A stretch of DNA of 64,000 nt from Yinghuangia seranimata (GTDB taxonomy: Bacteria; Actinomycetota; Actinomycetes; Streptomycetales; Streptomycetaceae). The position numbers and the translations under genes were made by a program. This document shows positions 24,780-47,134 of this stretch, piece after piece. The notes under the pieces are model-generated. The model saw nothing but the letters and a program-made list of their open reading frames with translations, was not told the DNA's origin and made no database searches. How positions within the stretch are numbered: the stretch's first letter is position 1; the number at the start of each line of letters is the position of its first letter. The DNA is taken from contig NZ_JASAOI010000024.1 of assembly GCF_029953285.1 (NCBI RefSeq), forward strand, positions 1 through 64,000, given 5' to 3'.

Positions 24780-24827
24780 TCCACTCTGAGCGCCATACCA
24801 TCGCAGCCAAGAAGCCATGGAGGAGCA

Positions 24828-27501: not shown

Positions 27502-27538
27502 GACATCACCGGCCCCGGGGACGGCGCTGCGGTGTTTC

Positions 27539-28350: not shown

Positions 28351-28457
28351 GCGTTCAGCTTGGGTGCCCGGATAGATGGTCTTTGGACACTGTCAGGGAC
28401 AGTCGAGACGTCTCGGCGCTACCGTCGAAGAACGCCTAGACGTCCGGGGGAATAGCC

Positions 28458-29210: not shown

Positions 29211-29242
29211 CGCGCTGCGCACCGGGACATGACATGCCCAGC

Positions 29243-29566: not shown

Positions 29567-29574
29567 CCCTGCGA

Positions 29575-29862
29575 TTAGGCCCCGATCACCAAGCCTGTCA
29601 GCGACGCCGCAATTGGCACCGGACTTCCAATGTGGTGATACCTATTATAGGCGACTAGTCCACCGCCAACTGCGCCTGCGATAAATGCTGCAAGATCAAA
29701 TAGCGACCAGAATTCTGGGTGGATTTCTAAACGTTCTAGATATTTGGCGAAGGATACATTTCCTTCGCTGAACATTGGGCCCCGCTCGCGTTTGGAGTCT
29801 TTTTGGGGAGGGCTTGGTTCGCTCGATGTCGGCTGAATATTCACTTCCACCACCAATTCCAT
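29575..29862 (-). CDS. Small membrane-anchored protein of the AT-rich cargo cassette
   Basis: A 95-aa protein (ATG 29862; TTG 29874 would add 4 residues). The N-terminus is polar (MELVVEVNIQPTSSEPSPPQKDSKRER), then an amphipathic stretch (FAKYLERLEIHPEFWSLFDLAAFIAGAVGGGLVAY) and a final hydrophobic segment (VPIAASLTGLVIGA). Its start lies inside the end of the upstream 273-aa gene (22-base overlap), which suggests tight co-expression. Function unknown. Confidence 0.6.
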   Translation of the reverse strand: MELVVEVNIQPTSSEPSPPQKDSKRERGPMFSEGNVSFAKYLERLEIHPEFWSLFDLAAFIAGAVGGGLVAYNRYHHIGSPVPIAASLTGLVIGA

Positions 29863-30662
29863 AGCTTTAGCCAAGCAGCGAGCGCGGTAATCAATGCTAG
29901 CTTCACTCTGTCAGGCGTGATCTCGAACGGAACTGGCAGCTCTGCCGGGTGTTCCGCTGATTTCCAGTCGCTACCGTCCCCGGATCTCCCAGAGAGGAAG
30001 ACCTCGCCCGACCCTGCTTTCCGGGACAGGTCCCGCGACTCGTCCGATTGGAAATGAAGGCCGCCCTCGTCGTTCTCAAACTGGATCTTGGTAATCTTGG
30101 CTTGGTGCTTGACCGTTAGCTCGTTCAGGATCCTGGAGAGGTCACCCGCGCGCCCGGGATTAGGTCGACGAACGGTAAGAGCAAGCTCGGATAGTCCAGC
30201 CTTCTGAAGTCGCGTGAGGTTCCGGTATACGTCATCCGGATTGGCAGCGAGATCTACATAAATCTCCACGTCCCCCATGGATCCGGCGTCTTCTGTGATA
30301 GCTCGAAGCAGTCTTTCAACTTCGCACGCTGCAATTTCTGGGGCGAGCGAGGTTGCCATGCCGACCCATTGGTCGGCGCCATCGATAGCAATGGCGAGAT
30401 CTTGACTGACTTGTCGAAACATAAGGCGCTTTCCATTCAACTGTTTGATGGAAGTGCGGGTTTCGTCATCTAGGTCGGTCTTGTAGATGCTTTCGTCATC
30501 GCCAGTTAGGATTTCAGATTCGTCTCCAAAGGCTGACGCGAGCAACTGAAAAGCTGCCTTATGTTCAAGTGGGTCGTTCTTCATTTTACTAAACGGATGG
30601 GTTCGGTATTCGCTGCTTGGCTTCGATCGAACGTTGACCCGGGCAACAAAGATGCGATCCAT
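29841..30662 (-). CDS. Unknown protein with C-terminal hydrophobic tail, first gene of the AT-rich cassette
   Basis: A 273-aa protein starting MDRIFVARVNVRSKPSSEYR. The body is soluble and mixed alpha/beta (AFGDESEILTGDDESIYKTDLDDETR, LMFRQVSQDLAIAIDG, VEIYVDLAANPDDVYRNLTRLQ). Residues 255-273 are hydrophobic and Trp-rich (LITALAAWLKLWNWWWK), possibly a membrane tail. I do not recognise the family. Codon use is much less GC-biased than in neighbours, pointing to a separate origin. Only a weak ribosome site (TAGAG) precedes ATG 30662; ATG 30584 is an alternative. With the two membrane proteins that follow it could form a membrane-associated effector set, for example phage defence, but there is no direct proof. 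Confidence 0.62.
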   Translation of the reverse strand: MDRIFVARVNVRSKPSSEYRTHPFSKMKNDPLEHKAAFQLLASAFGDESEILTGDDESIYKTDLDDETRTSIKQLNGKRLMFRQVSQDLAIAIDGADQWVGMATSLAPEIAACEVERLLRAITEDAGSMGDVEIYVDLAANPDDVYRNLTRLQKAGLSELALTVRRPNPGRAGDLSRILNELTVKHQAKITKIQFENDEGGLHFQSDESRDLSRKAGSGEVFLSGRSGDGSDWKSAEHPAELPVPFEITPDRVKLALITALAAWLKLWNWWWK

Positions 30663-31242
30663 GCAAAAACTCTAGGATCCAGGTCGCATAGCCAGTATCA
30701 GGCCGTGTGTGACCCGCCGTTAGAGTCCCTCAGACGGTGCAGGCGCGAGAGCCAACAGTTGGACCACAGCCAGCGGGAGGGTGCGTACTCGAGGCCTTCC
30801 CGGTGCTACTGACCAGGGCGGGTGGGACCACGGAGCCCACCCATAGCTGTTGGCGGGTGGAACACCCAGAGTCTCAATCGCCCGGCGGCCTGCCGTCTGC
30901 CTTTGATGCAGCGCGAAGGCCTAGCACCCCCGGGGACATGCTGATGTTGACCCGACCGACCGTGCCCAGCTTGGGTCCTACGAGCGTAAGGATCGGCCGC
31001 AATGGCCATCTCACTCAACCCAGTCCACGCAGGTCAACACGTACCGGTCGACTAGCCTCACTGAGACGGGGCATGAAGCCGTCGACCTCAGGGCGGTGAG
31101 TCGGCCGTCTCAGTTTCCGTCTCGTTCGGCACCGTCCGCCTCTGTTCGCGACCGTACGCGCTGTGGAATCAGTGCAGGTCAGCGGAGATGGCGGAACTGT
31201 GGCGAACTGTGGCGAACAAGGGGTGGCGGAGCGGGTGTGGAA
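30663..31242. other. Right-end non-coding region of the element (attP arm)
   Basis: 580 bases without a convincing gene. It holds the right copy of the 19-bp arm repeat (31105-31123) and a run of GCGGAACTGTG / GCGAACTGTG / GCGAACAAGG units at 31191-31220. Near 30825-30860 there is an imperfect inverted GGTGGG/CCCACC motif. These features fit integrase- and excisionase-binding DNA beside the att core. Confidence 0.55.
31105..31123 (+). repeat. Candidate integrase arm site, right copy
   Basis: CCGTCTCAGTTTCCGTCTC, identical to 15177-15195. Here it lies 119 bases before the att core, and the other copy lies 45 bases after its core. Confidence 0.6.
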
Positions 31243-31309
31243 CTCGAAAGCGTGTGAGGGGGCAACTCCTCCGTGGGTTCAAATCCCACCGCTACCGCTC
31301 TCAGCAGTA
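31243..31309 (+). repeat. Right attachment site (att core, copy 2)
   Basis: A 67-bp perfect copy of 15065-15131. It carries only the 3' half of tRNA-Ser (from the anticodon loop onward), so it is not a functional tRNA gene. It marks the right boundary of the element. Confidence 0.95.
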
Positions 31310-32797: not shown

Positions 32798-34399
32798 ATG
32801 GCGGCCGACCAGGACCCGAAGACGGAGACCCCGAAAACCGCGGCCCCGAAGAGCGCCAAGGCGGACGACACCCTCGCGACCGTCGCCGCGGGGTACGCCT
32901 TCACCGGGCCCGCACTCGACCTGGGCGCGCTCGTCGTCGACGGCGCCGGCCACGCCGACGCGCAGATCCGCATCCCGCTCGGCATGCTCAACCGGCACGG
33001 CCTGGTGGCCGGCGCCACCGGCACCGGCAAGACCAAGACGCTGCAGCTGATCGCCGAACAACTGTCCGCGCAGGGCGTCCCCGTCTTCCTCGCCGACGTC
33101 AAGGGCGACGTCTCCGGCATCTCGCAGCCCGGCGCCGCCAACGACAAGGTCACCTCGCGCGCGGCCGAGGTCGGCCAGACGTGGCAGGCCAACGGCTTCC
33201 CCACCGAGTTCTACGCGCTGGGCGGCCTCGGCCCCGGCGTCCCGGTCCGCGCCACCGTCACGTCGTTCGGCCCGACGCTGCTCGCGAAGATCCTCGACCT
33301 CAACGAGACGCAGGAGTCGTCGCTCGGCCTCATCTTCCACTTCGCCGACCAGCGCGGCCTCGAACTGTTCGACCTCAAGGACCTGCGCGCCGTCATCCAG
33401 CACCTCACCTCGGACGAGGGCAAGGAGGAGCTGAAGAACATCGGCGGGTTGTCCTCCGCGACCGCGGGCGTCATCCTGCGGTCGCTGGTGACACTGGAGA
33501 ACAACGGCGGCGACGTCTTCTTCGGCGAACCCGAGTTCGACACCGCCGAACTGCTGCGCACCGCCCCCGACGGGCGCGGGCTGGTGTCGATCCTCGAACT
33601 GCCGGCCGTCCAGGACAAGCCGCAGCTGTTCTCGACGTTCCTGATGTGGCTGCTCGCCGACTTGTTCTCCGCACTGCCCGAGGTCGGCGACCTGGACCGG
33701 CCCAAACTGGTGTTCTTCTTCGACGAGGCGCACCTGCTGTTCTCCGGTGCCTCCAAGGCGTTCCTGCAGGCCATCACGCAGACCGTGCGGCTGATCCGCT
33801 CCAAGGGCGTCGGGATCTTCTTCGTCACCCAGACGCCGAAGGACGTGCCGTCCGACGTGCTGGCCCAGCTCGGCAACCGGGTGCAGCACGCGTTGCGGGC
33901 CTTCACACCCGAGGACGCCAAGGCGCTCAAGGCCACCGTGTCGACGTTCCCCAAGTCGTCGTACGACCTGGAGGAGGTCCTCACCCAGATGGGCACCGGC
34001 GAGGCCGCCGTGACGGTGCTGTCCGAGAAGGGAGCGCCGACGCCCGTCGCGTGGACCCGCCTGCGCGCGCCCGAGTCGCTGATGGCGCAGATCGACCCCG
34101 CCGCGATGCAGGCCGCCGTCGCCGCGTCGCCGCTGCTCGCCAAGTACGGCACCGCCGTCGACCGGGAGTCGGCGTACGAGAAGCTCACCGCGGCGCAGGG
34201 CCAGGCCGCCGCCGAGGCCGCGCAGGAGCAGGCGCAGGCCGAGCAGCAGGCGCCCGAACGCGCTTCCGGCCGCGCCGCGAAGGCCGAGCCGAGCATGGTC
34301 GAACAGGTGCTCAAGAACCCCGCGGTGAAGGGGATGCTGAACACGGCGGTACGCGAGATCAGCCGCAACCTGTTCGGCGCCTCCCGCAAGCGGCGCTGA
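32798..34399 (+). CDS. HerA-like helicase / DUF853 P-loop ATPase
   Basis: A 533-aa cytosolic ATPase. A K/P/A-rich leader (1-25) is followed by the motor domain with Walker A GATGTGKTKT (72-81), FLADVKGDVSGIS, Walker B LVFFFDEAHLLF (~305-316) and FFVTQTPKDVPSDVLAQLGNRVQHALRAFTP. The C-terminal ~60 residues are A/Q/E-rich, then a basic end (FGASRKRR). DUF853 proteins belong to the HerA/FtsK clade; the cellular role is not settled. ATG 32798 has GAGGAGA 4-5 bases upstream. It precedes, in the same direction, the first paralogue of the MoxR/VWA locus by 160 bases. Confidence 0.9.
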   Translation: MAADQDPKTETPKTAAPKSAKADDTLATVAAGYAFTGPALDLGALVVDGAGHADAQIRIPLGMLNRHGLVAGATGTGKTKTLQLIAEQLSAQGVPVFLADVKGDVSGISQPGAANDKVTSRAAEVGQTWQANGFPTEFYALGGLGPGVPVRATVTSFGPTLLAKILDLNETQESSLGLIFHFADQRGLELFDLKDLRAVIQHLTSDEGKEELKNIGGLSSATAGVILRSLVTLENNGGDVFFGEPEFDTAELLRTAPDGRGLVSILELPAVQDKPQLFSTFLMWLLADLFSALPEVGDLDRPKLVFFFDEAHLLFSGASKAFLQAITQTVRLIRSKGVGIFFVTQTPKDVPSDVLAQLGNRVQHALRAFTPEDAKALKATVSTFPKSSYDLEEVLTQMGTGEAAVTVLSEKGAPTPVAWTRLRAPESLMAQIDPAAMQAAVAASPLLAKYGTAVDRESAYEKLTAAQGQAAAEAAQEQAQAEQQAPERASGRAAKAEPSMVEQVLKNPAVKGMLNTAVREISRNLFGASRKRR

Positions 34400-34559: not shown

Positions 34560-36518
34560 ATGAGCTGGGACCCGTTCGTCCACGTACTGGTCGCCGCCGC
34601 GGCCGAACGCATGGGCGACGACGCGGCACCGGTCCTGCGGCGGGTCGTGGACGCGCTGCCGCCGGGGAGCATGGCCTCACTCGCGGGCAAGCCGGTCGCG
34701 CTGCCGGACGCGTTCGTCGCGCTGGCCGCCGAACAAGGCGGCCAGGAACTGCTCGTCGCCCTCGCCGGCAACCCGTGCCTGACGCCGCACCAGCTCACGC
34801 TGCTCCTCGAGGCCGGCGGCGACGCCGTGCGGGTGAAGGCGTTCGACCCGGCCCGCGGCCGCGACGTGCCGGCCGACGCGATACCCGTCGGCTTCGCCCT
34901 CGCGTCCGCGACCGCCGTGCCGCCCGTCGACCAGGACCAACGCTGGTCGTCACCCCTCGGCTTCGCGGCGGACTCCGCCGTCGAGGACGCGTGGGCCGCC
35001 ATCCGCTCGCGCGCCTGCCGCGCCGACGAGGCCGTGAAACTCCTCGGGCAGCACCCTGTGCTCGCCTACACCGCCCGGGTCCGCACCGACGGCCACGACG
35101 GCGGGACGAGGCAGAGCCTCGACCTGCGCCCGCTGCTGCACCACCTGGACGATCCCCACCAGGCGTCCAGCGGCCTCGCCGAACCCGCCTCCGGCGCACT
35201 GGCGGTCGGCGCCGTCACGCCCCGCGAGCTCGTCGACCGGATCCGCCCCGCGCTCGTCGCCACCCAGCTCGTCGCCCGCCTGACCCGCGAGCACGCCCCA
35301 GGTCTGCCCGCCGAGGCGGACGCCGACGCGCTGCTCCGCCCGCTGCTGGCCGCCACCGTCGGCGCCGACCCGCGCCGCTGGGCCGCGCTCGCCACCCGGC
35401 TGCCGCGCGAAACCGGGCCGCTGCCCGCCCTGTTGGCGGCCGCCGCGGCGGAACCCGCCGACGACCCGGCCATCGTGGCGCCGAACGCGCGCAGCCGACC
35501 CGCGCTGCTGTTCCTGCTCCGCCGCATGGACGCCGCGAGCCTCGGCGTACTGCTGCCGCACCTCGAAGACGTGCGCGCCGACCTGATCCCAGGCGACGTC
35601 CCCATCCGCTCCGCCCTGTTGGAGCTCGCGCACGCCAGCGGGAACCGGGCGCTGCTGCGGGCCGTTGCACGGCACCAGCACCTGCGGGACGCGGAGGCGC
35701 ACCGGCTGCGGGCGTACGACGACCTGGAACTCGACCGGATCCTGGCCTTCAACCGGGCCGGGACGACGGCGTCGCTGCGCCGCGAGGTCTTCGCGGGCGT
35801 CGTGCCGGGTGGGCCGCGCCGCGAACCGGACCCGGTGCTGCGGCAGAAGGCGATCGACGACCCGCAGGCCGTGGAGTCGTCGACGCTCGCCTACTCCGGC
35901 GACCCGGTGCTGGTGTGCCTGGGGCTGCCCGGCTGCCACCACCGGCTGCGGCGCGTCGACCAGCTCGACGTGGTGCTGGCGTTGTGGGAACGGTCCGGGA
36001 TGGACGCGGTCGACCAGGTCCTCACCTCGGTGCCGCAGGCCATCTCACCGGCGGTCCGCAAACTGGTGGCCCGCGCGACGGCCGCAGGCGACGCCGAACC
36101 GCTGCGCACCGAACGGGACAAGCTCGCCCAGCGGGCCAAGGCGAAGCCCGCCCCCCGCGCCGCGTCCGACGAGGACGACGCGTGGCGCATGACCCCCGCC
36201 GAACGCATCCGGGCCTTCCCCCTGGGCCTCGGCCCCGTCCGAGCCACGGCCTCATGGACCCGCGCCGCCGACCCCGCCGACCTGGTCCGCGTAGCCCGCC
36301 CCGCCGAAGAGGCCCTACGCGCCCTCGCCTGGCGCGGCTCGGACGGAGCCTCCGACGAGGTCCACACCCTCCTCGACACCGAGGTCGCCACCCCACTGGG
36401 CACCGACCCCGAGGCCTGGGCCGTCCTGGTGGCCCTCCTCCCGGAATTCGAGGGCACCCTCCCGGAACTGGCCGCCCTGTGCGCCGCCGCGACCTACCGC
36501 GAGACCCCGACCCCCTGA
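34560..36518 (+). CDS. Helical-repeat protein of the MoxR/VWA locus (paralogue 1)
   Basis: A 652-aa Ala/Leu/Arg-rich protein without signal peptide or membrane helix. It consists of short helical repeats such as NPCLTPHQLTLLLEAGGD, resembling the N-P-x-x-P-x-x-x-L pattern of leucine-rich-variant (LRV) repeats. The C-terminus (EAWAVLVALLPEFEGTLPEL) matches a motif at the ends of the three large proteins at 40229-47134, and a weaker internal copy occurs near residues 264-288 (RRWAALATRLPRETGPLPAL). ATG 34560 starts MSWDPFVHVL; the ribosome site (GGGCGGGC) is modest. It converges on the MoxR-like gene. Likely a scaffold or client-binding partner of the ATPase; function unknown. Confidence 0.78.
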   Translation: MSWDPFVHVLVAAAAERMGDDAAPVLRRVVDALPPGSMASLAGKPVALPDAFVALAAEQGGQELLVALAGNPCLTPHQLTLLLEAGGDAVRVKAFDPARGRDVPADAIPVGFALASATAVPPVDQDQRWSSPLGFAADSAVEDAWAAIRSRACRADEAVKLLGQHPVLAYTARVRTDGHDGGTRQSLDLRPLLHHLDDPHQASSGLAEPASGALAVGAVTPRELVDRIRPALVATQLVARLTREHAPGLPAEADADALLRPLLAATVGADPRRWAALATRLPRETGPLPALLAAAAAEPADDPAIVAPNARSRPALLFLLRRMDAASLGVLLPHLEDVRADLIPGDVPIRSALLELAHASGNRALLRAVARHQHLRDAEAHRLRAYDDLELDRILAFNRAGTTASLRREVFAGVVPGGPRREPDPVLRQKAIDDPQAVESSTLAYSGDPVLVCLGLPGCHHRLRRVDQLDVVLALWERSGMDAVDQVLTSVPQAISPAVRKLVARATAAGDAEPLRTERDKLAQRAKAKPAPRAASDEDDAWRMTPAERIRAFPLGLGPVRATASWTRAADPADLVRVARPAEEALRALAWRGSDGASDEVHTLLDTEVATPLGTDPEAWAVLVALLPEFEGTLPELAALCAAATYRETPTP

Positions 36519-36716
36519 CCCCACCTCCACGAGCCGCGCTACCCGGCGTTTCGCGGGGGCGGGACGGGGGACGAAGCGGCGAGCGGCTGAGGCCCGGTGC
36601 CGTGACGTCGACGCCGTCGCCCTGCGACGTGGCGCCCGACGCTTCGCGCGGACGACGAGGACAGGCCGTTCGGTCGGAGCCCAGGCGGTGGTGGTGCCGC
36701 GGTGTTGTGTTGGCCG

Positions 36717-36746
36717 GCCGGGCGGGGTTGGTGTTCCCCACCCGGC
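36717..36746. terminator. Terminator of the MoxR/VWA operon
   Basis: GCCGGGCGGGG (36717-36727) pairs with CCCCACCCGGC (36736-36746) with one mismatch. It lies 11 bases past the stop of the MoxR-like gene on the minus strand, within the 238-bp convergent gap that otherwise holds no gene. Confidence 0.6.
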
Positions 36747-36756
36747 AGGGGCTCGG

Positions 36757-38628
36757 TCAGCTGCGGGGCATGCGGGCGAAGGCGTCGATCCAGAAGCGTT
36801 GCTTTTCCGCGGACTGGCCTACCAGGTAGCTGGACCTGAGCTTCGGGGGGAGGCAGGCCAGGAGGCGGGCGACGGTGTCTATGTGTTCGCGGAGTTGGGA
36901 GAGTTCGGCGTTGGCGAGGACCTGGTGGACGACGTCCGTGTCGTTGGTGCCTTCGCCGGACTCCTCGTCGCCGGAGCGGAGGCGGTCCTCCCATTCGGCG
37001 AGGTTGTCGGTGAGGTCGCCGAGGCCGGTCCGGGGGCGGTCGGCGAGGCGGGCTTCGAGGGCGTTGAGGGGGACGGGGGCGTACTCGCCCTCGCCCAGGT
37101 AGACCTTGGCCATCTCGAGGTTCATGCCGCGCTTGTGGAGCTTGATGAGCCGCTCCAGGGTGCGCTTGGTGATCCACTCGCGGCCGTCGTCGTCGATGTC
37201 GGTCTTCCACCACTCGAGGACGGTCTCGGCGATCGGGCCGTACGTGGCGATCAGCCACTCGTTCGCCGGGATGTCCTCGGGCCGCACCTGGAGCGACGCG
37301 GTGAAGCGCGTGGCCTGCGCGATGTTGTTGCGCGCCACGAGCATCTTGCGGCCCAGGTAGTACGGCGGGTTCTGCAGCGCGATCTGCGCGCGCAGGCCCG
37401 GGATGGGCCGGCCCGCGATCGACCACTCCTGGGTGACCTCCATGAGCTTGGCGAACGCCGACTTGTCCTTGGGCCGGTTGTACTCGTCCCACACGATGAC
37501 CTTGTCGCCGGGCGCCGTGAACCGGGCGGCGAGCAGGTTGTCGAGCGAGCCGTCGACGGTCGGCACCGGAGCGCACAGGTCCTCGACGTTGGTGACCGGC
37601 ATCGAGAAGTACAGCGGGTCGCCGCCGAGTTCCTCACGGATCACCTCGCGCACGACCTCGGTCTTGCCGCAGCCGGGAGGGCCCTGGATGAGCACCGCCC
37701 AACGCCGCCGCACCGCCTCGCGGACGATCCGGCGCACCGCGTCGGGCGTGTGCTCCGGGTTGCGGACGCCGATCGCGGCCGCGATCCGGTCGAGGGTCTC
37801 GTCGGTGCGGTCCGGCCCGGGCGAGCCGTCCTTGAGCGTCTCGACGAGCCGCAGCCGCTCGCCGTTGAGCAGCGGCAGGCCCCACTCGAGCGGGAACCCG
37901 GCCAGCGCGCAGTCGAGGATGTGCTCCAGCGTGCGCGGCGACAGCAGCTGCCGCAGCGTGGGCGACAGTGCCGTCCACACCTTGAAGACCCCGGACAGGT
38001 CGGTGCGTTCGAACCGCTCGGCGAGCTTGACGCGCCACGCGGTGTCGGTCGCGGTGATCTTGACGGTGACCATGCGGTCGAGGATCGCCAGGTCGCTGCG
38101 GCGCGCGGCGGTCTCGGTGAGCGACTCGTTGTCGGTGAGGAACACGCCTATGCAGCCGAGTTCGCGCAGGTCGTACTCGCCGAGCGTCCAGTTGCACGCG
38201 ACCTGCATCAGCTGCGACTGGATGGTCTCGCCGGCCTGCAGCGCGTCGTCGATGAGCAGGACGAAGCGGTTGCCGGGCCGGAGCTGGCGCATGATCAGCT
38301 GGCGCAGCACGAGCTCGTCGGTGCGCGGGTCGCGGACCGGCGCGTTGACCAGCAGGTCGTCGGGCGTCAGGTTCGCGGCCGGCACGAACACGAGCGTGGT
38401 GTCCGGGTATTTATCCGGGATGTGGGTGAAGAACGTGGCGGTCTTGCCGATGCCGTGTTCGCCGAAGATCTGCCCGGTCTGCCCGAGGTCGATCATCGCG
38501 TCGATGAACTCCTCGAGCTTGGAGACGCCCTTCCAGCCCTTCGGGGGCTCGGGGAAGGTCGCGGTGGCCTTCCAGCGCGGCCGGGCGGCCCGGGAACCGG
38601 TCTGCGGGGTGTCGGCGGTGATCGTCAT
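36757..38628 (-). CDS. MoxR-like ATPase with two AAA+ modules
   Basis: A 623-aa protein with two complete P-loop modules. Module 1 has Walker A GEHGIGKT (56-63) and Walker B FVLLIDD (122-128). Module 2 has GPPGCGKT (316-323) and VIVWDE (377-382), followed by NRPKDKSAFAKLMEV, a MoxR-style segment, and ALQNPPYYLGRK as a sensor region. Ordinary MoxR proteins have one module and ~320 residues, so this is a fused double. MoxR ATPases act with VWA proteins as chaperones that insert cofactors or remodel targets. ATG 38628 has GGAAGGA 5 bases upstream. It is the last gene of a five-gene minus-strand cluster, 49 bases after the VWA gene. Confidence 0.88.
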   Translation of the reverse strand: MTITADTPQTGSRAARPRWKATATFPEPPKGWKGVSKLEEFIDAMIDLGQTGQIFGEHGIGKTATFFTHIPDKYPDTTLVFVPAANLTPDDLLVNAPVRDPRTDELVLRQLIMRQLRPGNRFVLLIDDALQAGETIQSQLMQVACNWTLGEYDLRELGCIGVFLTDNESLTETAARRSDLAILDRMVTVKITATDTAWRVKLAERFERTDLSGVFKVWTALSPTLRQLLSPRTLEHILDCALAGFPLEWGLPLLNGERLRLVETLKDGSPGPDRTDETLDRIAAAIGVRNPEHTPDAVRRIVREAVRRRWAVLIQGPPGCGKTEVVREVIREELGGDPLYFSMPVTNVEDLCAPVPTVDGSLDNLLAARFTAPGDKVIVWDEYNRPKDKSAFAKLMEVTQEWSIAGRPIPGLRAQIALQNPPYYLGRKMLVARNNIAQATRFTASLQVRPEDIPANEWLIATYGPIAETVLEWWKTDIDDDGREWITKRTLERLIKLHKRGMNLEMAKVYLGEGEYAPVPLNALEARLADRPRTGLGDLTDNLAEWEDRLRSGDEESGEGTNDTDVVHQVLANAELSQLREHIDTVARLLACLPPKLRSSYLVGQSAEKQRFWIDAFARMPRS

Positions 38629-38677
38629 GGGTCCTTCCGCAAACGGAGTTCGTGGTACGGGTGCGGGGCGTCCGGGC

Positions 38678-40126
38678 TCAACGCGAGCCGGTGATCACCT
38701 TGTGGCACGCCATGGGAGGGTTGTGGCTCTCGGGCCACTCGTCGCCGCCTTCGGTGATGAGCCAGATCCACTTGTCGGGCTCGGCGGGCGTGATGTGCGG
38801 CGCGTAGCCGTCGGTCAGCATGAGCACCGCGTCGACGCTCTCGTCGAACACCTCGCCGTTGACCGCGAGCCGGCCCTCGACGTAGTCGGCGACCTGCTGG
38901 AAGTCGGTGCCGCCGCCGCCGAGCACGCGCTCGCCGGGCTTGAACGGCATCAGCGCGCCGTCGAAGCTCAGCCAGTGCGACTCGACGCCGTCGGTGAGGC
39001 CGACGAGTTCGGTGAGCCACTCCACCACGTGGTCGGGCATCGACCCGGACGTGTCGTACGCGACGACGATGACCTTGGTGCGCTCCTGCCCGCGCCGCGA
39101 CAGCATCGGGTCGTGGCCGAGCGTGGCCAGCAGCGCGCCGCGCTTCTTCGGGTAGACCAGCCGCTCGCCTTCGCGCAGCTTGGAGGACAGCACGTCGACG
39201 AGCCACTGCTGCCACCAGTCGACGCGGCGGGTCTTCTGCGTCTCGCCGCGCAGGAACCCCGCGCCGAGGTCGCCCCACAGCCGGGACACCTGGTCGGTGG
39301 CGCCGTCGGTGCGCTTGAGCAGGTCGAGGAGTTCCTCGCGGGCCAGGCGCATGCCGCGCCGCGCGGAGAGCAGCACGCCGCGCAGCACCTCGGAGGAGAT
39401 CCGCGCGACGGTCTCCGCGTCGAGCCCGTCGTTCTCGCCGGTGCCGTCGCCGAGCACCAGGTGGATGCACAGCGGGGGCGGGACCGGCGGCTCCTTCATG
39501 CGCTTGAGCTCTGCGTAGACGAGTGCGTCGGTCTCGATGAACTCGTCGTACGGGAGCGGTTCGAGGCCCTGCCCGGTCAGGTCGGCCACGTACATCTCGT
39601 GGATCTTGTACGGGTCGACGCCGGTCGGCTCCTCGGTCACCTCGCCGGTGTCGGGGTCGGTGCGCCGCACGATCGGCAGCGTGCTGCGGCCGAGGCGCTT
39701 GAGCGCGACGTGGTTGATGGTGACCTCGGCGGCGAGCGTGAACACCGGGTCGGCGCGCAGCTCGGGGTCGGCGAACAGGTGGCGCTGGATGAGGTGGCGG
39801 GCCTCGTGGAACAGCACGAACTTGACGCCGTCCAGCCCGAGCGAGACGAAGAAGTCCGGGTTGTAGAGCAGCAGGCAGGTGCCGTCGCCGGAGGCCATCA
39901 CGGCCGCCGTCTCCACGGCCGTGGTCGGGATCTGGTGGTGGCACTTGGTGTAGAGCCACGAGGCGATCACGCTGGCCTGCATGCCGAAGTCGAGGAGCGC
40001 CTGCTCCTTGAGCTCACGGGCCTTGGCGACGACCGCGTCGTCCGCGGGCTGCCAGGCCTCCAGCGCGCGCCGGTCGGTCAGTTGGACGACCAGCGGCTTC
40101 GGTGCGCTGGTGGATCCGTAGGCCAT
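38678..40126 (-). CDS. VWA-domain protein with HExxH metallopeptidase-like domain (DUF2201 type)
   Basis: A 482-aa cytosolic protein. The N-terminal half contains HEARH (107-111, HExxH zinc motif) in FVLFHEARHLIQRHLF, with VTINHVALKRLG after it, as in DUF2201 putative metallopeptidases. The C-terminal half is a von Willebrand A domain with an intact MIDAS: DTSGS (358-362), GGGGTDF (403-409) and LTDG (437-440). The VWA probably binds the MoxR-like ATPase encoded next. ATG 40126 has GGGAGGTGATC 4 bases upstream, a near-perfect ribosome site, and excludes the longer reading to 40201. A protease active site joined to an ATPase-coupled VWA suggests regulated proteolysis or substrate processing (inference). 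Confidence 0.9.
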   Translation of the reverse strand: MAYGSTSAPKPLVVQLTDRRALEAWQPADDAVVAKARELKEQALLDFGMQASVIASWLYTKCHHQIPTTAVETAAVMASGDGTCLLLYNPDFFVSLGLDGVKFVLFHEARHLIQRHLFADPELRADPVFTLAAEVTINHVALKRLGRSTLPIVRRTDPDTGEVTEEPTGVDPYKIHEMYVADLTGQGLEPLPYDEFIETDALVYAELKRMKEPPVPPPLCIHLVLGDGTGENDGLDAETVARISSEVLRGVLLSARRGMRLAREELLDLLKRTDGATDQVSRLWGDLGAGFLRGETQKTRRVDWWQQWLVDVLSSKLREGERLVYPKKRGALLATLGHDPMLSRRGQERTKVIVVAYDTSGSMPDHVVEWLTELVGLTDGVESHWLSFDGALMPFKPGERVLGGGGTDFQQVADYVEGRLAVNGEVFDESVDAVLMLTDGYAPHITPAEPDKWIWLITEGGDEWPESHNPPMACHKVITGSR

Positions 40127-40228
40127 GCCGATCACCTCCCCTCGTGTCGTCGATGGTTCCAGGCTGGGCTGACACCCGTCCAAGCAATTGACGTCCGGCA
40201 AGGGCGGGCAGTTTCCGAGGCCTTGGGA

Positions 40229-42640
40229 TTATCCGGTACGCCCCGGTTCGCCGGGCCGGGTGGTCGGCGGGGACGAGGTCACGGTGGCGGTCACGGACGC
40301 GGTCACGGGCGCGACGGTCGTGGCGGCGGCCGCGACCGAGAGCAGCTCGGGGAGCGTGCCGCTGAAGTCGGGCAGCAGCGCGGCGACGACCGACCAGGCG
40401 TCGGGGGTGTCGGCGCCGTGAGCGGTGACGGTCGCGTCGAGCAGGGACGGCAACGCGGCGAGCTCGTGCATCCGCGGGGCCAGCCACAGCGTGGACAGCG
40501 CGGGCCGTCCGTGGGCGAGGATGTCGCCGACGCCGAGGTGTCCCGCACGCAGCCCGGGAAGGAACCACACTTTGCGCCGGTGAAGGACGGTCTTCGGGGC
40601 GGGCAGCGGGAACTGGGCCAACGTGGCCAGGGCGAGCGGGCGTGAGCGGCCGACGACCCACTCGGCCACCCACCGCTCCTTCTTGTGTGTGCGCAGGATC
40701 GCGTGGGCGACCTCGTCGGGAAGGTCGTCGCGGCGGAGCAGCGTGTTGACCGCGTTGAACGTGACGCGGCGGGCGCGCAGCCGGTCGAGGACGGTCTCCC
40801 ACTCGGGCGGCTCGGGCCAGGCGAGGTACTCGTCGTGGGACGGGGGCATGCCCGACTGGAGGTCGCGCGCGAACTGGGCCCCGGCGAGTGCCGCGAGCTG
40901 TCCGCCGAGCCGGGCCGCGCCGCCGACGAGGGCGAGCGTCTGCCGGATCCGGGTGGCCACGAGCAGGTCGAGTGGGCCGTCCTCCTGCGCGAGTTCGGCG
41001 ACCTCCGCGACCATGCCGAGCTCGACGAGGCGGCGGCACCCGGCGATCTGCGCGCCGGCCGGAAGGCTGCCGACGGGGCGGCGCAGCGCGGTGAGGACCA
41101 GGTCCGGGTCGCGGGCGTGGGCGGCGTACTGGACGGGGTGCGTGTGCCCGGTCTGCGGGTCGTCCAGGAGTACGGCGAGGGTGTCCGGGTGCAGCGGCAC
41201 GGGTTCGGTGCGGCCCGGGGAGTGCGGTGTCCCCGACACCACGGTGCGCCACAGCGCGGGCTTCAGCCCGTACGTCCGCAGCAGGCGGTCGTTGAGCCTG
41301 GGGTCGTCGCGGCGGAGCAGGCGTGCCTGGGTGCGCGGGTGGTGGCCGTGGTGGGCGACGAAGGCGTCGGCGACCTCCGGCGGGGCGACGTCGGCGAAGG
41401 CGTCGACGAGCGCGTCGGGCAGCGCCGTCCGGATGCCGTAGTGGCACAGCTCGCCCAGGTCCTCCGGGTCGAGAGCGGCGAGTACGGCGCGCAGCGCGTC
41501 GGGGTCGTCGACGCGGCAGAGCAGGTGGAAGAACGGGGACGTGGACGTCCGCGGCTTGGGCGGCAGCGGATGCCGCATGGGCGGCGGCGGATCCGGCAGC
41601 GGCCGGTGCTTGTGCGGGGGTTCCGGCAGAGTGCGGGCGGCGGCGAACAGCGCGGGCAGCGTGCGGCGCTCGCCGTCGGCGAGCAGGGCGAGCAGTGTGC
41701 GCAAGTGCGCGGGGTCGGTGCCGAGGGACTCCCGGACCAGGGAGGCGAGTTCGGTGCGGAGATCGTCGAACTCGGTGGGCGCGGTGCCGGTGTGGTCGTC
41801 CGCCCGGTAGTACGCGTCGACGTGCTCCAGGGTGCGCAGCAGGTGCGCGCCGTCCGGCGCGCCCCGCAGGAGCTCGCGCCCGCTGAACGCGCCTGTGCGC
41901 AGGCCGGTGCGGATGACCGCGCCGTCGTCTCGGGGGTTGCCGCTGTGGGTGAGGGCCAGCGCGATGTGCTGTGGCACCTCCGGGAGTTCGACGAGCACCC
42001 GGCACATGGAGTCGTGCAGCGGCGCGTCGTCGTGGAGGCGGGCGAACGCGTTCCAGTCGTCCGCGGTCCACAGGTCGAGGCGGAAGAGCGCGAGGCGGCC
42101 GCGCAGCAGGCTGCGGTCGGCGCTGAAGTAGGGGCCTGGTGGGGAGCACCAGTCGTACAGCGCCTGCGGGGTGTTGGGCACTCGGCCACGGCGCAGGCCG
42201 GGAATGCAGGCGGCGGCGTGCGCGGCGAGTTCGAGGTGCGGGCAGTCCAGCGCGGGGCCGAGCAGGCGCCGCGACCTCGGTTCGTCGAGGAGGAGTTCGC
42301 GCAGCTCGTCGGCGAGCGGGTCGGCGTCGAGCATGCGCCTGCGGTGCCGGGTGCTGCCGCGTTCGTGCCGGTACAGCGCCGCGAGTGTGGGCCCGTCGGT
42401 GACCGCGGTGAGACGGGTCAGCGCCTCGTCGTCCAGGTTGCTGTTGGCGGCGAGTGCCCGCAGGTCGGCCGGTGTCGCGTGGGCCAGCGCCCAGTCGACC
42501 AGGCGGGACGGCGGCGGGCCGCAGTGGCGCAGCAGGTCGGCGCGGTGCGGCGGGGACAGCCTGGCGAGTACGCCGGGCAGGTCGGCGTGCGCGGCCTCCT
42601 GCAGCAGCAGAGCCAGGCCCTGCGCGGGGTGCCGCGTCAC
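40229..42640 (-). CDS. Helical-repeat protein of the MoxR/VWA locus (paralogue 2)
   Basis: An 803-aa cytosolic protein, starting (GTG) MTRHPAQGLALLLQEAAHADL. Helical repeats rich in L, A, H and P run throughout (for example NSNLDDEALTRLTAVTD). A H/P-rich spacer (KHRPLPDPPPPMRHPLPP) lies near residue 360, right after an internal copy of the family motif (LRTLLALLADGERRTLPALF). The C-terminus bears the diagnostic DAWSVVAALLPDFSGTLPEL and then a T/V/P-rich tail. GTG 42640 overlaps the upstream stop by 4 bases (GTGA), so it is translationally coupled to paralogue 3. No enzyme motif found; role inferred from the locus only. Confidence 0.78.
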   Translation of the reverse strand: MTRHPAQGLALLLQEAAHADLPGVLARLSPPHRADLLRHCGPPPSRLVDWALAHATPADLRALAANSNLDDEALTRLTAVTDGPTLAALYRHERGSTRHRRRMLDADPLADELRELLLDEPRSRRLLGPALDCPHLELAAHAAACIPGLRRGRVPNTPQALYDWCSPPGPYFSADRSLLRGRLALFRLDLWTADDWNAFARLHDDAPLHDSMCRVLVELPEVPQHIALALTHSGNPRDDGAVIRTGLRTGAFSGRELLRGAPDGAHLLRTLEHVDAYYRADDHTGTAPTEFDDLRTELASLVRESLGTDPAHLRTLLALLADGERRTLPALFAAARTLPEPPHKHRPLPDPPPPMRHPLPPKPRTSTSPFFHLLCRVDDPDALRAVLAALDPEDLGELCHYGIRTALPDALVDAFADVAPPEVADAFVAHHGHHPRTQARLLRRDDPRLNDRLLRTYGLKPALWRTVVSGTPHSPGRTEPVPLHPDTLAVLLDDPQTGHTHPVQYAAHARDPDLVLTALRRPVGSLPAGAQIAGCRRLVELGMVAEVAELAQEDGPLDLLVATRIRQTLALVGGAARLGGQLAALAGAQFARDLQSGMPPSHDEYLAWPEPPEWETVLDRLRARRVTFNAVNTLLRRDDLPDEVAHAILRTHKKERWVAEWVVGRSRPLALATLAQFPLPAPKTVLHRRKVWFLPGLRAGHLGVGDILAHGRPALSTLWLAPRMHELAALPSLLDATVTAHGADTPDAWSVVAALLPDFSGTLPELLSVAAAATTVAPVTASVTATVTSSPPTTRPGEPGRTG

Positions 42641-44547
42641 GCCGTCACCGCCTTGACGGTGTCGAGGAGTTCGGGGAGCGAGCCGGCGAAGTCCGGGAGG
42701 AGGTGGGCGGCTACCGTCCACGCTTCGAGGTCGTCGCCGAGGACGTCCGTGAGCAGGCGCGCGACGTGCGCGGTCGCGGCCTGCCACGCTTCGGGCAGCG
42801 TCGGCCGCAACTCGCCGAGGTTGCCGAGCACATGCGCTGCTGGGTGGGTGAGTTCAACGAACTCCTCGGGGTGCAGGTGGCCGAGCGCCAGGGCGGTCAG
42901 GTACCAGGAGTTGCGGGCCGAGACGCCGAAGTACTCGGCCTGCGGCAGCGGGTGGCGCGCGGCGGTGAGGGCGAACGCGCGGGACCGGCCGCCGAGGGTG
43001 TCGGCGAGGTCCGGCAGTTGCGCGCAGGCGTCGAGCGCGAGCCCGTCCGGGCAGTCGGGGTGTTCGACGAAGCGGGTGAGGACGCGGGACGGCAGCGGCA
43101 TCCGGGCGTGCGCCTCGGCGGCGGCCGGCCAGAACCCGGGCGGCACGGGCAGGGACGCCAGATCGGGGCTGCGGCGGATGGCGTCGAGCAGCACGTCGGG
43201 GCGCTCGTGGTGGGCGACGGCCGCACGGAGCAGGGCGAGCCCGGTGCCGTGCGGGTCGACGCCGTGCCCGCCGATGGTGCCGTCGACGCCGTCCGCGGCG
43301 GCCAGTGCCTCCGCGACCGCACGCCCGGCCTCCGGGCCCAGCGAGGCCGTGAGTTCGGGGTCGCGCAGCGCGCCGGGACCCTGGCACTCCCAGATGCTCA
43401 GACAGCCGCGCAGCAGGCCGGCCGTGCCCAGGAGGGTGCCGTAGCGGGAAATGGCGCCGCGGATGAGCTGCGGGTAGTGGCCGTGCATGGCGGCGGCCGC
43501 GCGGCGGAGGGGCTGGTCGGGGCCGTATAGGAGTTCCTGGCGTGCGCGCGGGGCGAGCGGGACGGTGCGCGGCGCGTCGCGGCGGGTGGCGGCGAACACG
43601 GCGAGGGCGACGTCGACGCGCGGGTGGTGGACGAGGAGCGCGCTGTTGACCTCCGGGTCGTGCAGCGCGAGCAGCCGGGCCACCGACGCCGGCGCGCGGT
43701 CGGCCGCACGGACCAGCGAGCCGGTCAGGTCGGGGGCGCGGCGCAGCGCACGGATCACGACGGACGGGGGCAGCCGGGGTGTCTCCAGCAACCCGCTCAC
43801 CGCGGTCGGCGTGAGCGCCGCGATCACGCGCGCCGCGGTGCGCGGCGGCGTGCGGGCGAGCAGCGCGGCCGGGTTGCCGAAGTCCCAGTGCACGGCGCGG
43901 CCGGTGGGGACGTCGGGCCGCCGGTCGGGCGGAAGCCTGGTGTCGGCGCACAACTGGGGGAACGGACCCGGGTGGTGGGGGCCGTGCTCGATCAGCCACA
44001 GCCACGCCTCCAGGTCGTCGCCGGGCAGCAGGGCGGCGGCTTCGGCGAAGACCGCGTCCAGGGGGACGAGGCGTTCGCCGTAGCGGCGGCTGTACTTGTC
44101 GAGGGTGCGCAGCGCCGACCAGCCGGGTGCCGCCTCCGTCATGACCTGGCGCGGGGTGACGGCGCCGCGGGCGAGCGCGGCGGTGAGCGTCATGGTGGCG
44201 AGCCCGCGCCGGCTCGTGGACGTGCAGACGACGAGGGCCAGCGCGGCGTCGGGCGGGCAGTCGTCGCGGGCGACCAGGGCCGCGGCGATGCTGTCCGGGA
44301 GCGGCGCGCGGTGGTGCTCGCGCAGGATCAGGTCCCAGTCGGCGACGGCGACGCCGTCCAGCACATAGCGCGGGTCCTTGCCGCGGCCGGAGCGCAGCCG
44401 GGCGATCGCCGCCTCGGGGCTCTCCGGGGTCGGTTGGGGTTCGGCGTCGGGCGGTGCGGCGGGCGGGTGGCCGAGGCGTTCGGCGACGGCCTCGGCGACC
44501 TCGGGCGACGCGTGGCGCAGCAGGGGATGCTCGTCGGACGGGGTCAT
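42637..44547 (-). CDS. Helical-repeat protein of the MoxR/VWA locus (paralogue 3)
   Basis: A 636-aa protein, MTPSDEHPLLRHASPEVAEAV. LRV-like units such as HPDCPDGLALDACAQLPDL and HHPRVDVALAVFAATRRD are visible. An internal family motif sits near residues 180-200 (DDLEAWLWLIEHGPHHPGPF) and the C-terminal copy is DLEAWTVAAHLLPDFAGSLP. ATG 44547 has GAGGTGG about 5 bases upstream. It lies 55 bases downstream of paralogue 4 and is coupled to paralogue 2. It carries no signal peptide, membrane helix or known catalytic motif. Confidence 0.78.
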   Translation of the reverse strand: MTPSDEHPLLRHASPEVAEAVAERLGHPPAAPPDAEPQPTPESPEAAIARLRSGRGKDPRYVLDGVAVADWDLILREHHRAPLPDSIAAALVARDDCPPDAALALVVCTSTSRRGLATMTLTAALARGAVTPRQVMTEAAPGWSALRTLDKYSRRYGERLVPLDAVFAEAAALLPGDDLEAWLWLIEHGPHHPGPFPQLCADTRLPPDRRPDVPTGRAVHWDFGNPAALLARTPPRTAARVIAALTPTAVSGLLETPRLPPSVVIRALRRAPDLTGSLVRAADRAPASVARLLALHDPEVNSALLVHHPRVDVALAVFAATRRDAPRTVPLAPRARQELLYGPDQPLRRAAAAMHGHYPQLIRGAISRYGTLLGTAGLLRGCLSIWECQGPGALRDPELTASLGPEAGRAVAEALAAADGVDGTIGGHGVDPHGTGLALLRAAVAHHERPDVLLDAIRRSPDLASLPVPPGFWPAAAEAHARMPLPSRVLTRFVEHPDCPDGLALDACAQLPDLADTLGGRSRAFALTAARHPLPQAEYFGVSARNSWYLTALALGHLHPEEFVELTHPAAHVLGNLGELRPTLPEAWQAATAHVARLLTDVLGDDLEAWTVAAHLLPDFAGSLPELLDTVKAVTA

Positions 44548-44602
44548 GCGGCCACCTCGCGGAACCCGGCGGCTCTGTGCGTCCGCCCGTCGTGCCGCCC
44601 CG

Positions 44603-47134
44603 TCACGCGGCCGCCCGTGCGGTGGCGACGAGTTCGAGGAGCGTGGCGGCGGGGCGTTGCTCGAGCATGCGGGCGAGGACGACCCACGCGTCGGTGTTCT
44701 CGCCGAGTTCGCGGTGCAGCGTGCGGGCGACGAGCCGGGCGAGCGGCAGGTGTTCTATGGACGCGTCGATCACGGTGTTCGCCTCGGCGGTGGCCTGGAA
44801 CTCCTCGGGGCTGATCACGCCGGACTCCAGCGCCCTGCCCGGGGCGTGCCAGCGCGTCGGCACCGCGTCGCGCAACGCCTCGGCGACCAAAGGCCGGTGG
44901 TGTGCGAGCACGCCGCCGTGCAGCGTGGTCGGGTCCTGCGACGGCAGCGGCTGCTGCCAGGCCTGCGCGGCGGGACGCAAGTGGCGCTGCTCGCGGGCGA
45001 GTTCCAGCGGCAGGTCGGGCCGCTCGGCGATGAGGTTGAACGCGGCGGCGGGGATGCGGCGTTCGCGGGCCTGCGCGAGCACCGACGGCCACGCCAGGCC
45101 CGGGTCGGCGAGTGCGGAGAAGACGCCTCCCGGCCTGCGGACGTGCGGTATGTAGGACGTGCCGGCGATCTCCTTCGACCACCGCTCGTCCATAGCGCGC
45201 AGCGCCGCGCCGAGCGGCGCGATGCCGCCGGCGTCGCGGGCCTGCACCGTCTCCGGGTCGTCCGGGAGCCCTTCGAGCGCGGATATGCCGTGCAGTTCGG
45301 CGATCCGGTACGCGGCACGCAGCCGTGCGGGATGCCCGAACTCGCCGCCCGAGCCCAGCGCGACGGCGCGCAGCACCGCCAGGTCGGGAGACGCCAGCAG
45401 CGGCCACAGGTCGCGCGGGTCGGCGCCGTCGCGCGGCGCGGCGCACAGTTCGCCGCGCAGCACGTCGTCGAAGCCGTCCACGGAGACGATGTACTCGCGC
45501 AGTGCGTAGGGGCAGCGCGGATTGCGGTACGCCGCCGAGGCGATGGCGCGGTCGCCGCCGAGCACGAGCGTCTCCAGGACGTCCGCGCGCACGTGCGGGT
45601 TCGCGGCGAGGACGCGGCGCGCGACGGGCCCGCCGTGGGCCACGACGTGGTCGACGAGCGGCGCGGTCGCGTCGGGGCTGCCGGCCAGCGGGGCGAGCTG
45701 CGCGTCGTTGAGGAACTCCAGTGCGGGGCCCGCCTGGTCGGCGTCGAGCAGGCCGATGAGCACGGTGTACGCCCACGCGGACTGGCGGCCGAGCCGGGGC
45801 GGTGGCAGGGCGGGACCGGGCGACGGGTGTGCGCATGCGGCGATCAGCTCCGCGATGGTGACGTCGTAGCTGGGCAGCGTTGTGTACAGCCGCTGCCACA
45901 CGCCCGGGTCTGAGGCGACGGCGAACGCCAGCATCTGCCGCACCACGTTCGCGGCCTCGGCCTGCGCCGCCAGCGCGCCCAGGCCGCCGTGCACCATCGA
46001 GGTCAACGCCAGCCGCGCGGGCCGCACGTGCGCGACCAGATCGCCCGCCGTCAGCGAACCCTCCTCCAGGCCGCGCAGCACGACCCGCTTGGTCACGTGG
46101 TCCTCCGCGGTGGCCGCGCACAGCGGCAGCAGCTCGGGGCCCGGACGCGGCACCATCTGGAGCGCGCGCGGATAGGCGCGCAGCAGCATCGACCGCAAAC
46201 CGGCCGGGCAGCGCGGATGCTCCAGCAGCGCCACCGCGGAGCACCACGGCAGCGGCTCCTTGGCGTGCGCCGCGGTGAGGAGGTCCCAGCGGGGCTCCAG
46301 AACGCCGCGTACCAGCGCGCGGGCGGCGGACGTCCGGCGCGCGGCACGGAGTCTGGTGGTGAGCGCCTCCTCGCCGTACGCCTCCTCCAACAGCTTCGGC
46401 ACCAGGAACGCCGTGCGGCTGCCCATCACCTCGAGCCGGATCACCTCGGCCTGCGCGTCCTCGCCCTCGATCGGCGCGACCTGGAAGACGCGGCGCAGCT
46501 GGGCCGTCCGGCCTGCGGCGGCCAGCGTGCGGCACGCGCGCAGCCGGGCCGTCGAGCCGCCGGGACCGGGGACGCCGGAGACCAGCGCCCAGAAGACGAG
46601 GTCCGGATCGGACGCGGCGAGCGCCACCTGCAGGTCGGGACGGCGCCCGGCGAGCAGCACGGCGTGCCGCACCTCCTCGGCGAGCGGCACCGGGTCCTCG
46701 AGCGGCACGGGCGACGAACGGGCGCCGGGGTAGCGCGGGTTCACCGGGTCGCGCCACAGGTCGGTGGTCGGGGCGGGCCGGTCGGGCTCCGGCGCGAACC
46801 GGCGCTGCGACAGCACCGCCATGCGCAGCGCGGGCCACCCCGACGCGAGGAAGAGGCCCGCGTTGACGTCCGGGTCGTCCATCTCCAGCAGACGCAGCAT
46901 CGGATCGGGGTCGACCGGTGTGCCGGCGGCCTGGGCGCGCGCGTGGCAGGCGGTGACGACCGCGCGGGCGTCGCCGGTGCGGACGGCGTGCTCCAGGACG
47001 GCGGGCGGCAGGTTCGGGTCGCGGTGGTCCGCGGTGAAGGCGGAAGGGGCGGCGTCCGTCGTGACCCGGCCCAGCAGGCTCGCGCCCAGCGGGCCGCCGG
47101 CGTGCCACAGCAGGTTCCTGACGGTCTCCGTCAC
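44603..47134 (-). CDS. Helical-repeat protein of the MoxR/VWA locus (paralogue 4)
   Basis: An 843-aa protein, the largest of the set and the first gene of the minus-strand cluster. GTG 47134 (MTETVRNLLWHAGG) has GGGAGGGA about 8 bases upstream; the frame is open further, but that part does not look coding. LRV-like repeats are clearest here: HPRCPAGLRSMLLRAYP, NPHVRADVLETLVLGGD, NPRCPYALREYIVSVDG, RPDLPLELAREQ. Internal (PGVWQRLYTTLPSYDVTIAEL) and C-terminal (TDAWVVLARMLEQRPAATLL) copies of the family motif are divergent. Probably a solenoid binding protein; function unknown. Confidence 0.78.
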   Translation of the reverse strand: MTETVRNLLWHAGGPLGASLLGRVTTDAAPSAFTADHRDPNLPPAVLEHAVRTGDARAVVTACHARAQAAGTPVDPDPMLRLLEMDDPDVNAGLFLASGWPALRMAVLSQRRFAPEPDRPAPTTDLWRDPVNPRYPGARSSPVPLEDPVPLAEEVRHAVLLAGRRPDLQVALAASDPDLVFWALVSGVPGPGGSTARLRACRTLAAAGRTAQLRRVFQVAPIEGEDAQAEVIRLEVMGSRTAFLVPKLLEEAYGEEALTTRLRAARRTSAARALVRGVLEPRWDLLTAAHAKEPLPWCSAVALLEHPRCPAGLRSMLLRAYPRALQMVPRPGPELLPLCAATAEDHVTKRVVLRGLEEGSLTAGDLVAHVRPARLALTSMVHGGLGALAAQAEAANVVRQMLAFAVASDPGVWQRLYTTLPSYDVTIAELIAACAHPSPGPALPPPRLGRQSAWAYTVLIGLLDADQAGPALEFLNDAQLAPLAGSPDATAPLVDHVVAHGGPVARRVLAANPHVRADVLETLVLGGDRAIASAAYRNPRCPYALREYIVSVDGFDDVLRGELCAAPRDGADPRDLWPLLASPDLAVLRAVALGSGGEFGHPARLRAAYRIAELHGISALEGLPDDPETVQARDAGGIAPLGAALRAMDERWSKEIAGTSYIPHVRRPGGVFSALADPGLAWPSVLAQARERRIPAAAFNLIAERPDLPLELAREQRHLRPAAQAWQQPLPSQDPTTLHGGVLAHHRPLVAEALRDAVPTRWHAPGRALESGVISPEEFQATAEANTVIDASIEHLPLARLVARTLHRELGENTDAWVVLARMLEQRPAATLLELVATARAAA

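Follow-up and report, generated by a model that had tools for sequence, protein, structure and literature searches.

The locus described here is best read against several systems in which a MoxR-type AAA+ ATPase is combined with a von Willebrand factor A (VWA or vWA) domain. RavA-ViaA, NorQ-NorD and CoxD-CoxE have a single AAA domain and a dedicated client complex, and we know of no metallopeptidase fusion among them, nor of solenoid partners of the family described below (REP). Midasin (Rea1) is a eukaryotic protein of ribosome assembly, built as one giant chain and with no protease domain. Well-described pairs of MoxR with a VWA protein serve in metal insertion or enzyme maturation and work by ATP-driven remodelling (PMC9976466, PMC13036017). 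In jumbo phages a MoxR protein occurs with a vWA domain fused to an N-terminal metallopeptidase, and a role in virion assembly has been proposed for this pair (PMC7824862). Finally, multicellular bacteria contain MoxR-vWA-centric ternary systems, described as VMAP, iSTAND, FtsH, beta-propeller, iSTAND2 and TERNS3 (PMC7159879, PMC8195603, PMC12839542). The iSTAND versions use vWA-fused peptidases (PMC12839542), and the ternary systems have been proposed to act in defence or conflict (PMC7159879, PMC8195603).

The window (the whole 64-kb stretch of DNA that was analysed, from a 9.8-Mb Yinghuangia genome) carries six genes that the initial annotation had grouped together. All six ORFs are intact, with the coordinates and strands given in Table 1, and they are the strongest coding regions of the window according to a codon model that was trained on these same six genes. 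The order on the minus strand is REP3, REP2, REP1, VWA, MoxR, with gaps of 55, -4, 102 and 49 bp, and REP3 is presumably the first gene of an operon. The three same-strand repeat genes had been called coupled or closely spaced and this holds: the REP2 and REP1 ORFs share 4 bp and the spacing from REP3 to REP2 is 55 bp. REP4 faces MoxR across 238 bp. Orthologues of all six genes, REP4 included, are present at the corresponding locus in both other Yinghuangia species of the genome collection (one of them Yinghuangia soli), and the REP3 orthologues lie at the same place with 49-51% identity. Because there are orthologues in both species and the MoxR/VWA pair is matched 131 times among 84,980 species genomes, the six-gene locus is not a chance arrangement.

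Table 1. Genes of the locus, with positions in the window
Gene and product	Positions	Strand	Supporting observation
REP3, 843-aa helical-repeat protein	44603-47134	minus	intact ORF, paralogue of REP1
REP2, 636-aa helical-repeat protein	42637-44547	minus	AlphaFold2 model all-helical
REP1, 803-aa helical-repeat protein	40229-42640	minus	BLASTP to REP2 E=3e-16
VWA protein, 482 aa, N-terminal zinc-metallopeptidase-like domain	38678-40126	minus	DUF2201_N above cut-off
MoxR, tandem-AAA+ ATPase, 623 aa	36757-38628	minus	two Walker A/B sets, AAA_5
REP4, 652-aa helical-repeat paralogue, convergent	34560-36518	plus	BLASTP to REP1

The description of MoxR as a double-AAA protein is borne out by two P-loops, each with a Walker B motif. 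Domain 1 has the Walker A motif GEHGIGKT and the Walker B motif VLLIDDAL; domain 2 has GPPGCGKT and VIVWDEYN and matches Pfam AAA_5 with 27.7 bits (cut-off 22). All 81 of 81 relatives keep the tandem arrangement and both Walker A/B sets without change, with a Walker B that ends in Asp-Asp in domain 1 and in Asp-Glu in domain 2. Pfam bpMoxR is not listed among the matches of this protein in the Pfam search. In a sequence search of solved structures the second AAA domain matches Midasin with E=4e-6 over a short stretch.

The VWA protein has the motifs HEARH (HExxH), DTSGSM and TDG and matches DUF2201_N of Pfam with 31.9 bits (cut-off 23.2), in agreement with its earlier description as an HExxH plus VWA protein. 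The HExxH motif and a downstream Glu in an AAExxxN context are invariant in 76 of 76 relatives, as are the MIDAS DxSxS motif, T407 and D439. Judged from the conservation of HExxH, proteolysis by the VWA protein is likely. The Pfam DUF2201 VWA-like domain (PF09967) gives no match in this protein at E<=1; it does match another protein of the same genome. In the AlphaFold2 model (pLDDT 75.6, pTM 0.58) a VWA/I-domain fold is predicted at the C-terminus, for which Foldseek gives a probability of 1.00 and VIA a Z of about 11 across 142 residues. This fold spans residues 349-481 of 482, leaving no C-terminal effector domain. In a structure search nearly the whole chain matches phage proteins that carry a metallopeptidase or VWA-like annotation (best E 3.5e-13, probability 1.00). 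The arrangement of the domains is not fixed by these matches because their TM-scores are low and the rmsd is large. In the PDB fold search VWA-domain matches fill the list, and no metallopeptidase match for the N-terminus is among the matches listed.

Two further DUF2201 proteins are encoded in the same genome, each beside a single-AAA MoxR (355 and 411 aa). Profile comparison links the VWA protein, around HExxH, to both of them. Domain 1 of MoxR aligns over 138 columns with one of the two single-AAA MoxR proteins; the other gives a weak P-loop match alone. By these profile links the pair is related, though divergently and with its AAA domains in tandem, to the known MoxR/metallopeptidase-VWA couple. 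It shares with the DUF2201 couple and the phage pair the same HExxH-then-VWA fusion, the same class of partner and the adjacency of the two genes. It differs from the DUF2201 couple in that MoxR has tandem AAA domains instead of one, in that the VWA part has no Pfam DUF2201 match, and in that REPs, and at other loci LRR, SDR-like and 2OG-oxygenase-like proteins, accompany the pair. A MoxR with a metallopeptidase-VWA partner is thus known from DUF2201 proteins and jumbo phages, so the zinc-protease-like VWA protein is not new in itself. The initial annotation could not match the set to any described system. This stands for the six genes taken together, for which we found no named system, but not for the couple at their core.

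The likeness to the ternary systems lies in the MoxR plus vWA core, the multicellular actinomycete hosts and a fast-evolving further gene, which here is 5' of the pair. Unlike in those systems, the third part is a helical REP solenoid and REPs are dispersed in the genome, MoxR has tandem AAA domains, and the VWA protein has an invariant metallopeptidase domain at its N-terminus and no effector at its C-terminus. By the tests run, in which no C-terminal effector was found, the locus falls outside the named MoxR-vWA ternary classes. The REPs have no Pfam, NCBIfam or PADLOC match to ternary third components, in libraries that may not model every such component. RavA-ViaA, NorQ-NorD and CoxD-CoxE resemble the pair in combining a MoxR AAA+ protein with a VWA partner, and Midasin resembles it in having several MoxR-clade AAA domains per chain together with a MIDAS domain, with a weak match in sequence. 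Known defence systems were also considered and rejected: PADLOC gave weak, short P-loop matches alone for MoxR and none for the other five genes. No paper describing a system of REPs with this pair was found in the open-access literature. The REP repertoire matches no known system that we found, and the tandem AAA domains and the partners set the pair apart from canonical DUF2201 pairs.

The four REPs had been described as paralogues, with the fourth convergent, and BLASTP agrees: REP1 matches REP2 with E=3e-16, and REP3 and REP4 with E-values of 2e-5 to 6e-8 (REP4, 2e-6 to 6e-8). They have no Pfam, NCBIfam or PADLOC match (one Pfam match with E=0.15 was taken as chance). The AlphaFold2 model of REP2 is all-helical (pLDDT 85.3, pTM 0.80), and with this one member modelled the REPs are predicted to be an all-helical solenoid family. 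HEAT/ARM/PPR/PUF-type solenoids are the best matches in the fold search (Foldseek best E 0.055; VIA Z at most 6.3), scores that suggest a common solenoid arrangement only, with no family well above the others. No convincing sequence relative of a REP was found in solved structures. The best-conserved part is a C-terminal module with the consensus EAWxVALRLLPxFxGTLPELL. In each long REP another, weaker copy of this module precedes the C-terminal one by about 300-420 aa, as is seen in REP4 with its two copies, an arrangement that looks like the duplication of a short-REP unit.

About 21 further non-redundant REP genes are scattered elsewhere in the genome containing the window, a number estimated from merged profile matches rather than from individually annotated genes. 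In Yinghuangia soli there are six REP matches in a row over about 7 kb (C56:249470-256646), which suggests tandem amplification. Two contigs of the window's genome (C26:140500 and C49:3000) are identical over at least 19.6 kb, including two REP genes; the cause is perhaps a linear replicon with terminal inverted repeats, or else a duplication that took place recently.

The MoxR/VWA pair is patchily distributed among filamentous actinomycetes. It is present in 36 of 294 genomes of the order and in 6 of 395 of the class sample, and the best 80 of the 131 matches are all actinobacterial. It occurs in Streptomyces, Kitasatospora, Embleya, Yinghuangia, Catenulisporales, Actinomadura and Nonomuraea, and also in Saccharothrix, Lentzea, Amycolatopsis, Kutzneria and relatives. 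We compared the neighbourhoods of 81 MoxR/VWA loci, with ORFs called by a simple codon model and then clustered by BLAST. The VWA gene adjoins MoxR in essentially all of them. A REP-family gene lies beside the pair in 64 of the 81 loci by clustering and in one more by six-frame search (about 65/81). It is often directly 5' of VWA on the same strand, with short gaps or overlaps, in many genera and with differing flanks, and the position equivalent to REP1 holds a conserved 5' REP in most loci.

The loci are of three types. Type A has a short REP (about 280 aa) 5' of VWA, an LRR protein encoded convergently (by clustering, in 31 loci) and an SDR-like protein with a zinc ribbon at its N-terminus. 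In type B, to which the window belongs, long REPs (about 800 aa) flank the pair on one side or on both. Type C (seven loci, in Actinomadura and Streptomonospora) has an LRR protein, a 2OG-oxygenase-like protein and no adjoining REP; the oxygenase assignment is by motif only, from an invariant HxD...H...R pattern as in 2-oxoglutarate/Fe(II) oxygenases, with no Pfam match. In two genomes of the Catenulispora family the order REP-REP-VWA-MoxR-SDR-LRR is found on one strand, with 4-bp overlaps from gene to gene among the first four. The order and orientation of SDR and LRR differ between Catenulispora and Streptomyces while the gene composition is kept, which speaks for SDR and LRR as parts of the system. 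The grouping of REPs with the pair in the initial annotation is supported, but its list was incomplete for the many loci that add an LRR and an SDR-like or 2OG-oxygenase-like protein. In the same way its six-gene set stands as a grouping; the presence of four REPs is a peculiarity of Yinghuangia, with 0 to 3 beside the pair elsewhere.

In order to compare genomes with and without the pair, REPs were sought with the short-REP alignment and the C-terminal-unit alignment as profiles. Among the first 12 pair-bearing and the first 12 pair-lacking genomes in handle order, which were scored deeply, REPs were found in 12/12 and 1/12, respectively (Fisher p=1e-5, kinship ignored). A shallow scan of 294 genomes, in which seven or eight candidates were scored per genome and the counts are lower bounds, found REPs in at least 29 of the 34 genomes with a near-full MoxR and in at least 37 of the 258 without. 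The five misses are all in one other family of the order, and in two genomes of this family that were inspected at the locus divergent REPs were recognised by the C-terminal profile. Thirteen genomes without a REP adjoining the pair were examined. Ten of these carry REPs elsewhere, among them Embleya with 22 and 28 matched REP segments, and in the other three, all type C, none was detected. Repeat proteins that do not accompany the pair in other genomes would have refuted the initial annotation; instead they adjoin it at about 65 of the 81 loci and follow it from genome to genome in the deeply scored comparison. Some genomes, however, have REPs, including intact long REP genes, and no pair of this type. 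REPs can therefore act alone or with another partner and are not exclusive parts of the system. As partners of the pair they are favoured by co-occurrence; in the window's genome, however, the majority of the REPs are encoded away from the pair.

The REPs also differ from the pair in their rate of change. Between the window and Yinghuangia soli, dN is 0.050 for MoxR, 0.065 for VWA and 0.102 for a HerA-like neighbour, as against 0.38-0.57 for the REPs, whose dN/dS is about 0.45-0.85 (for REP4 this covers just the shorter ORF called in Yinghuangia soli). Among 215 locus pairs with a MoxR dS below 0.45, which are species-level data, median dN/dS is 0.47 for REP in comparison with 0.17 for MoxR, 0.22 for VWA, 0.16 for SDR, 0.22 for LRR and 0.12-0.19 for two flanking genes. 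The REPs evolve several-fold faster than the pair, which does not imply positive selection; with a dN/dS that nowhere reaches 1, relaxed constraint could be the reason.

From all this we tentatively propose, as a possible rather than a probable reading, a machine that is driven by ATP and gated by the VWA domain, that remodels and probably also cleaves proteins, and in which the REPs are exchangeable recognition subunits. Its parts differ in strength. The pair very probably acts as ATPase and co-chaperone; because of its motifs and its known relatives (PMC7159879, PMC9976466, PMC13036017), our default is a ring powered by ATP and assisted by a VWA co-chaperone that binds peptides. MoxR would assemble into a ring, and the MIDAS site of the VWA domain would bind a peptide from a partner protein or a target protein, coupling it to this ring. 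ATP hydrolysis would then remodel the bound protein, mainly through the second AAA domain, because the first has Asp-Asp in Walker B. The remodelled protein would be exposed or fed to the metallopeptidase domain, for which activity seems reasonably likely given its conserved motif. That the REPs work physically with the pair is, from their genomic association, a good deal better than an even bet, and if they do, a role as adaptors rather than clients is slightly favoured. The divergent solenoid body of each REP would bind a different target and the conserved C-terminal module would dock it on the machine. The view of the initial annotation, that the repeat proteins present clients or sense ligands, is likewise a conjecture. 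The dispersed REP genes would supply this one machine too, and other lineages would supplement or replace the REP by an LRR protein and an SDR-like or 2OG-oxygenase-like protein.

The conserved end, diverging body, variable copy number, co-occurrence and scattered copies of the REPs fit interchangeable adaptors. Fast evolution, copy-number change and patchiness would fit a putative role against variable targets such as phage, mobile elements or competitors. Because of the fast change and patchiness, and by analogy with the role proposed for the MoxR-vWA ternary systems, defence or conflict would be the most natural setting. In its widest form the proposal is that some 25 diversifying solenoid adaptors encoded in cis and in trans (elsewhere LRRs) program one MoxR/VWA metalloprotease per genome against variable targets, with a logic comparable to the F-box or NLR receptor repertoires of eukaryotes; we regard this form as speculative and unlikely to hold in full. 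Should the REPs prove to be adaptors, bacteria would possess a remodelling protease with specificity set by a large, rapidly diversifying solenoid family, much as in the ubiquitin ligases and immune receptors of eukaryotes. A function would then be at hand for an actinomycete family that reaches tens of genes per genome and has no Pfam or NCBIfam model, and MoxR/VWA machines would gain a tandem-AAA class. The difference in co-occurrence makes the idea directly testable in Streptomyces. Against the adaptor machine stand the REPs of pair-less genomes and the three of 13 examined pair-bearing genomes in which no REP was detected.

The same REP pattern also suits clients of the machine, and this is the main rival. 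MoxR and VWA would fold, assemble or mature the REPs through the C-terminal module, the peptidase would trim or remove faulty ones and the REPs themselves would do the job; the module could equally serve to cap the structure or to tag a substrate. Such a scheme accounts for the co-occurrence, for a conserved C-terminal signature among otherwise divergent REPs and for many dispersed REPs with one machine. We nevertheless hold it to be rather unlikely, as intact long REP genes exist in genomes without a pair of this type, pairs exist in genomes without a detected REP, and LRR proteins appear to replace the REP in type C loci.

It is improbable that the pair is instead an oxidoreductase maturation couple like CoxDE or NorQD, with the SDR-like or 2OG-like protein as its target and REP or LRR as helpers. 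We know of no need of SDRs for an inserted metal cofactor. Metal insertion and enzyme maturation are what known MoxR/VWA couples do (PMC9976466, PMC13036017), about 45 loci have an SDR-like gene and seven a 2OG-like gene no more than 6.5 kb from the pair, and in Catenulispora the SDR is just 3' of MoxR on the same strand. However, both genes are missing from the six-gene locus, in the window as in the two other Yinghuangia species, and pair and REPs persist without them. No dedicated metalloenzyme client is found among the six genes, and the 2OG-like partner is confined to the seven type C loci. The SDR-like family (L110:12993-14321) has invariant CxxC/CPxC and TGGRxKIG-type motifs, and in 37 of 37 members Thr (HPHTNMAK) replaces the catalytic Tyr. 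Because of this replacement its members may be NAD(P) binders that lack the usual SDR chemistry, and the family is possibly non-catalytic. A relative with 43% identity (L164:55-1293) is present on a 41.8-kb contig filed as viral (IMGVR_UViG_2687453458).

The REPs might also be an unrelated, expanding, dispersed family that came to adjoin the pair by chance in several lineages and has no functional link to it. The dispersed REP genes of the window's genome have no consistent partner at the sites inspected, and solo large relatives of 1,150-1,510 aa are found in Streptomyces without an adjoining MoxR/VWA of this type; in several Streptomyces solo or tandem long REP genes occupy a conserved site beside hrcA/dnaJ-like genes. 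Chance is hardly probable when set against the same-strand placement directly 5' of the pair in many genera and the marked difference between pair-bearing and pair-lacking genomes. Least probable is housekeeping quality control in filamentous growth by a Midasin-like remodeller and protease, with REPs that diverge mainly through relaxed constraint: the short Midasin match and a REP dN/dS below 1 agree with it, but so patchy a pair is unexpected for a housekeeping function.

A mobile origin of the pair was considered and rejected. A tblastn search of VWA against 50,697 phage records gave no match, MoxR gave one 22% fragment among plasmids, in a chromosomal-looking 11.9-Mb record, and viral contigs gave two short P-loop-region matches alone. 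A HerA-like (PF05872) ATPase gene (32798-34399) lies 160 bp 5' of REP4 on the same strand. It also neighbours the pair in Embleya and Yinghuangia soli, apparently through synteny and not partnership, and was rejected as a member because its family is found in only five loci and is not tied to the pair. Further upstream, a perfect direct repeat of 67 bp (15065-15131 and 31243-31309) encloses about 16.2 kb with an FtsK/TraB-like gene (19889-22189). This stretch was rejected as the carrier of the locus, since its boundary at 31243-31309 is outside the six genes. The first repeat copy is inside a tRNA-Ser(CGA) gene (15033-15120), and the region from 15065 to 31309 is an integrated actinomycete element inserted in tRNA-Ser that ends about 1.5 kb before the HerA-like gene.
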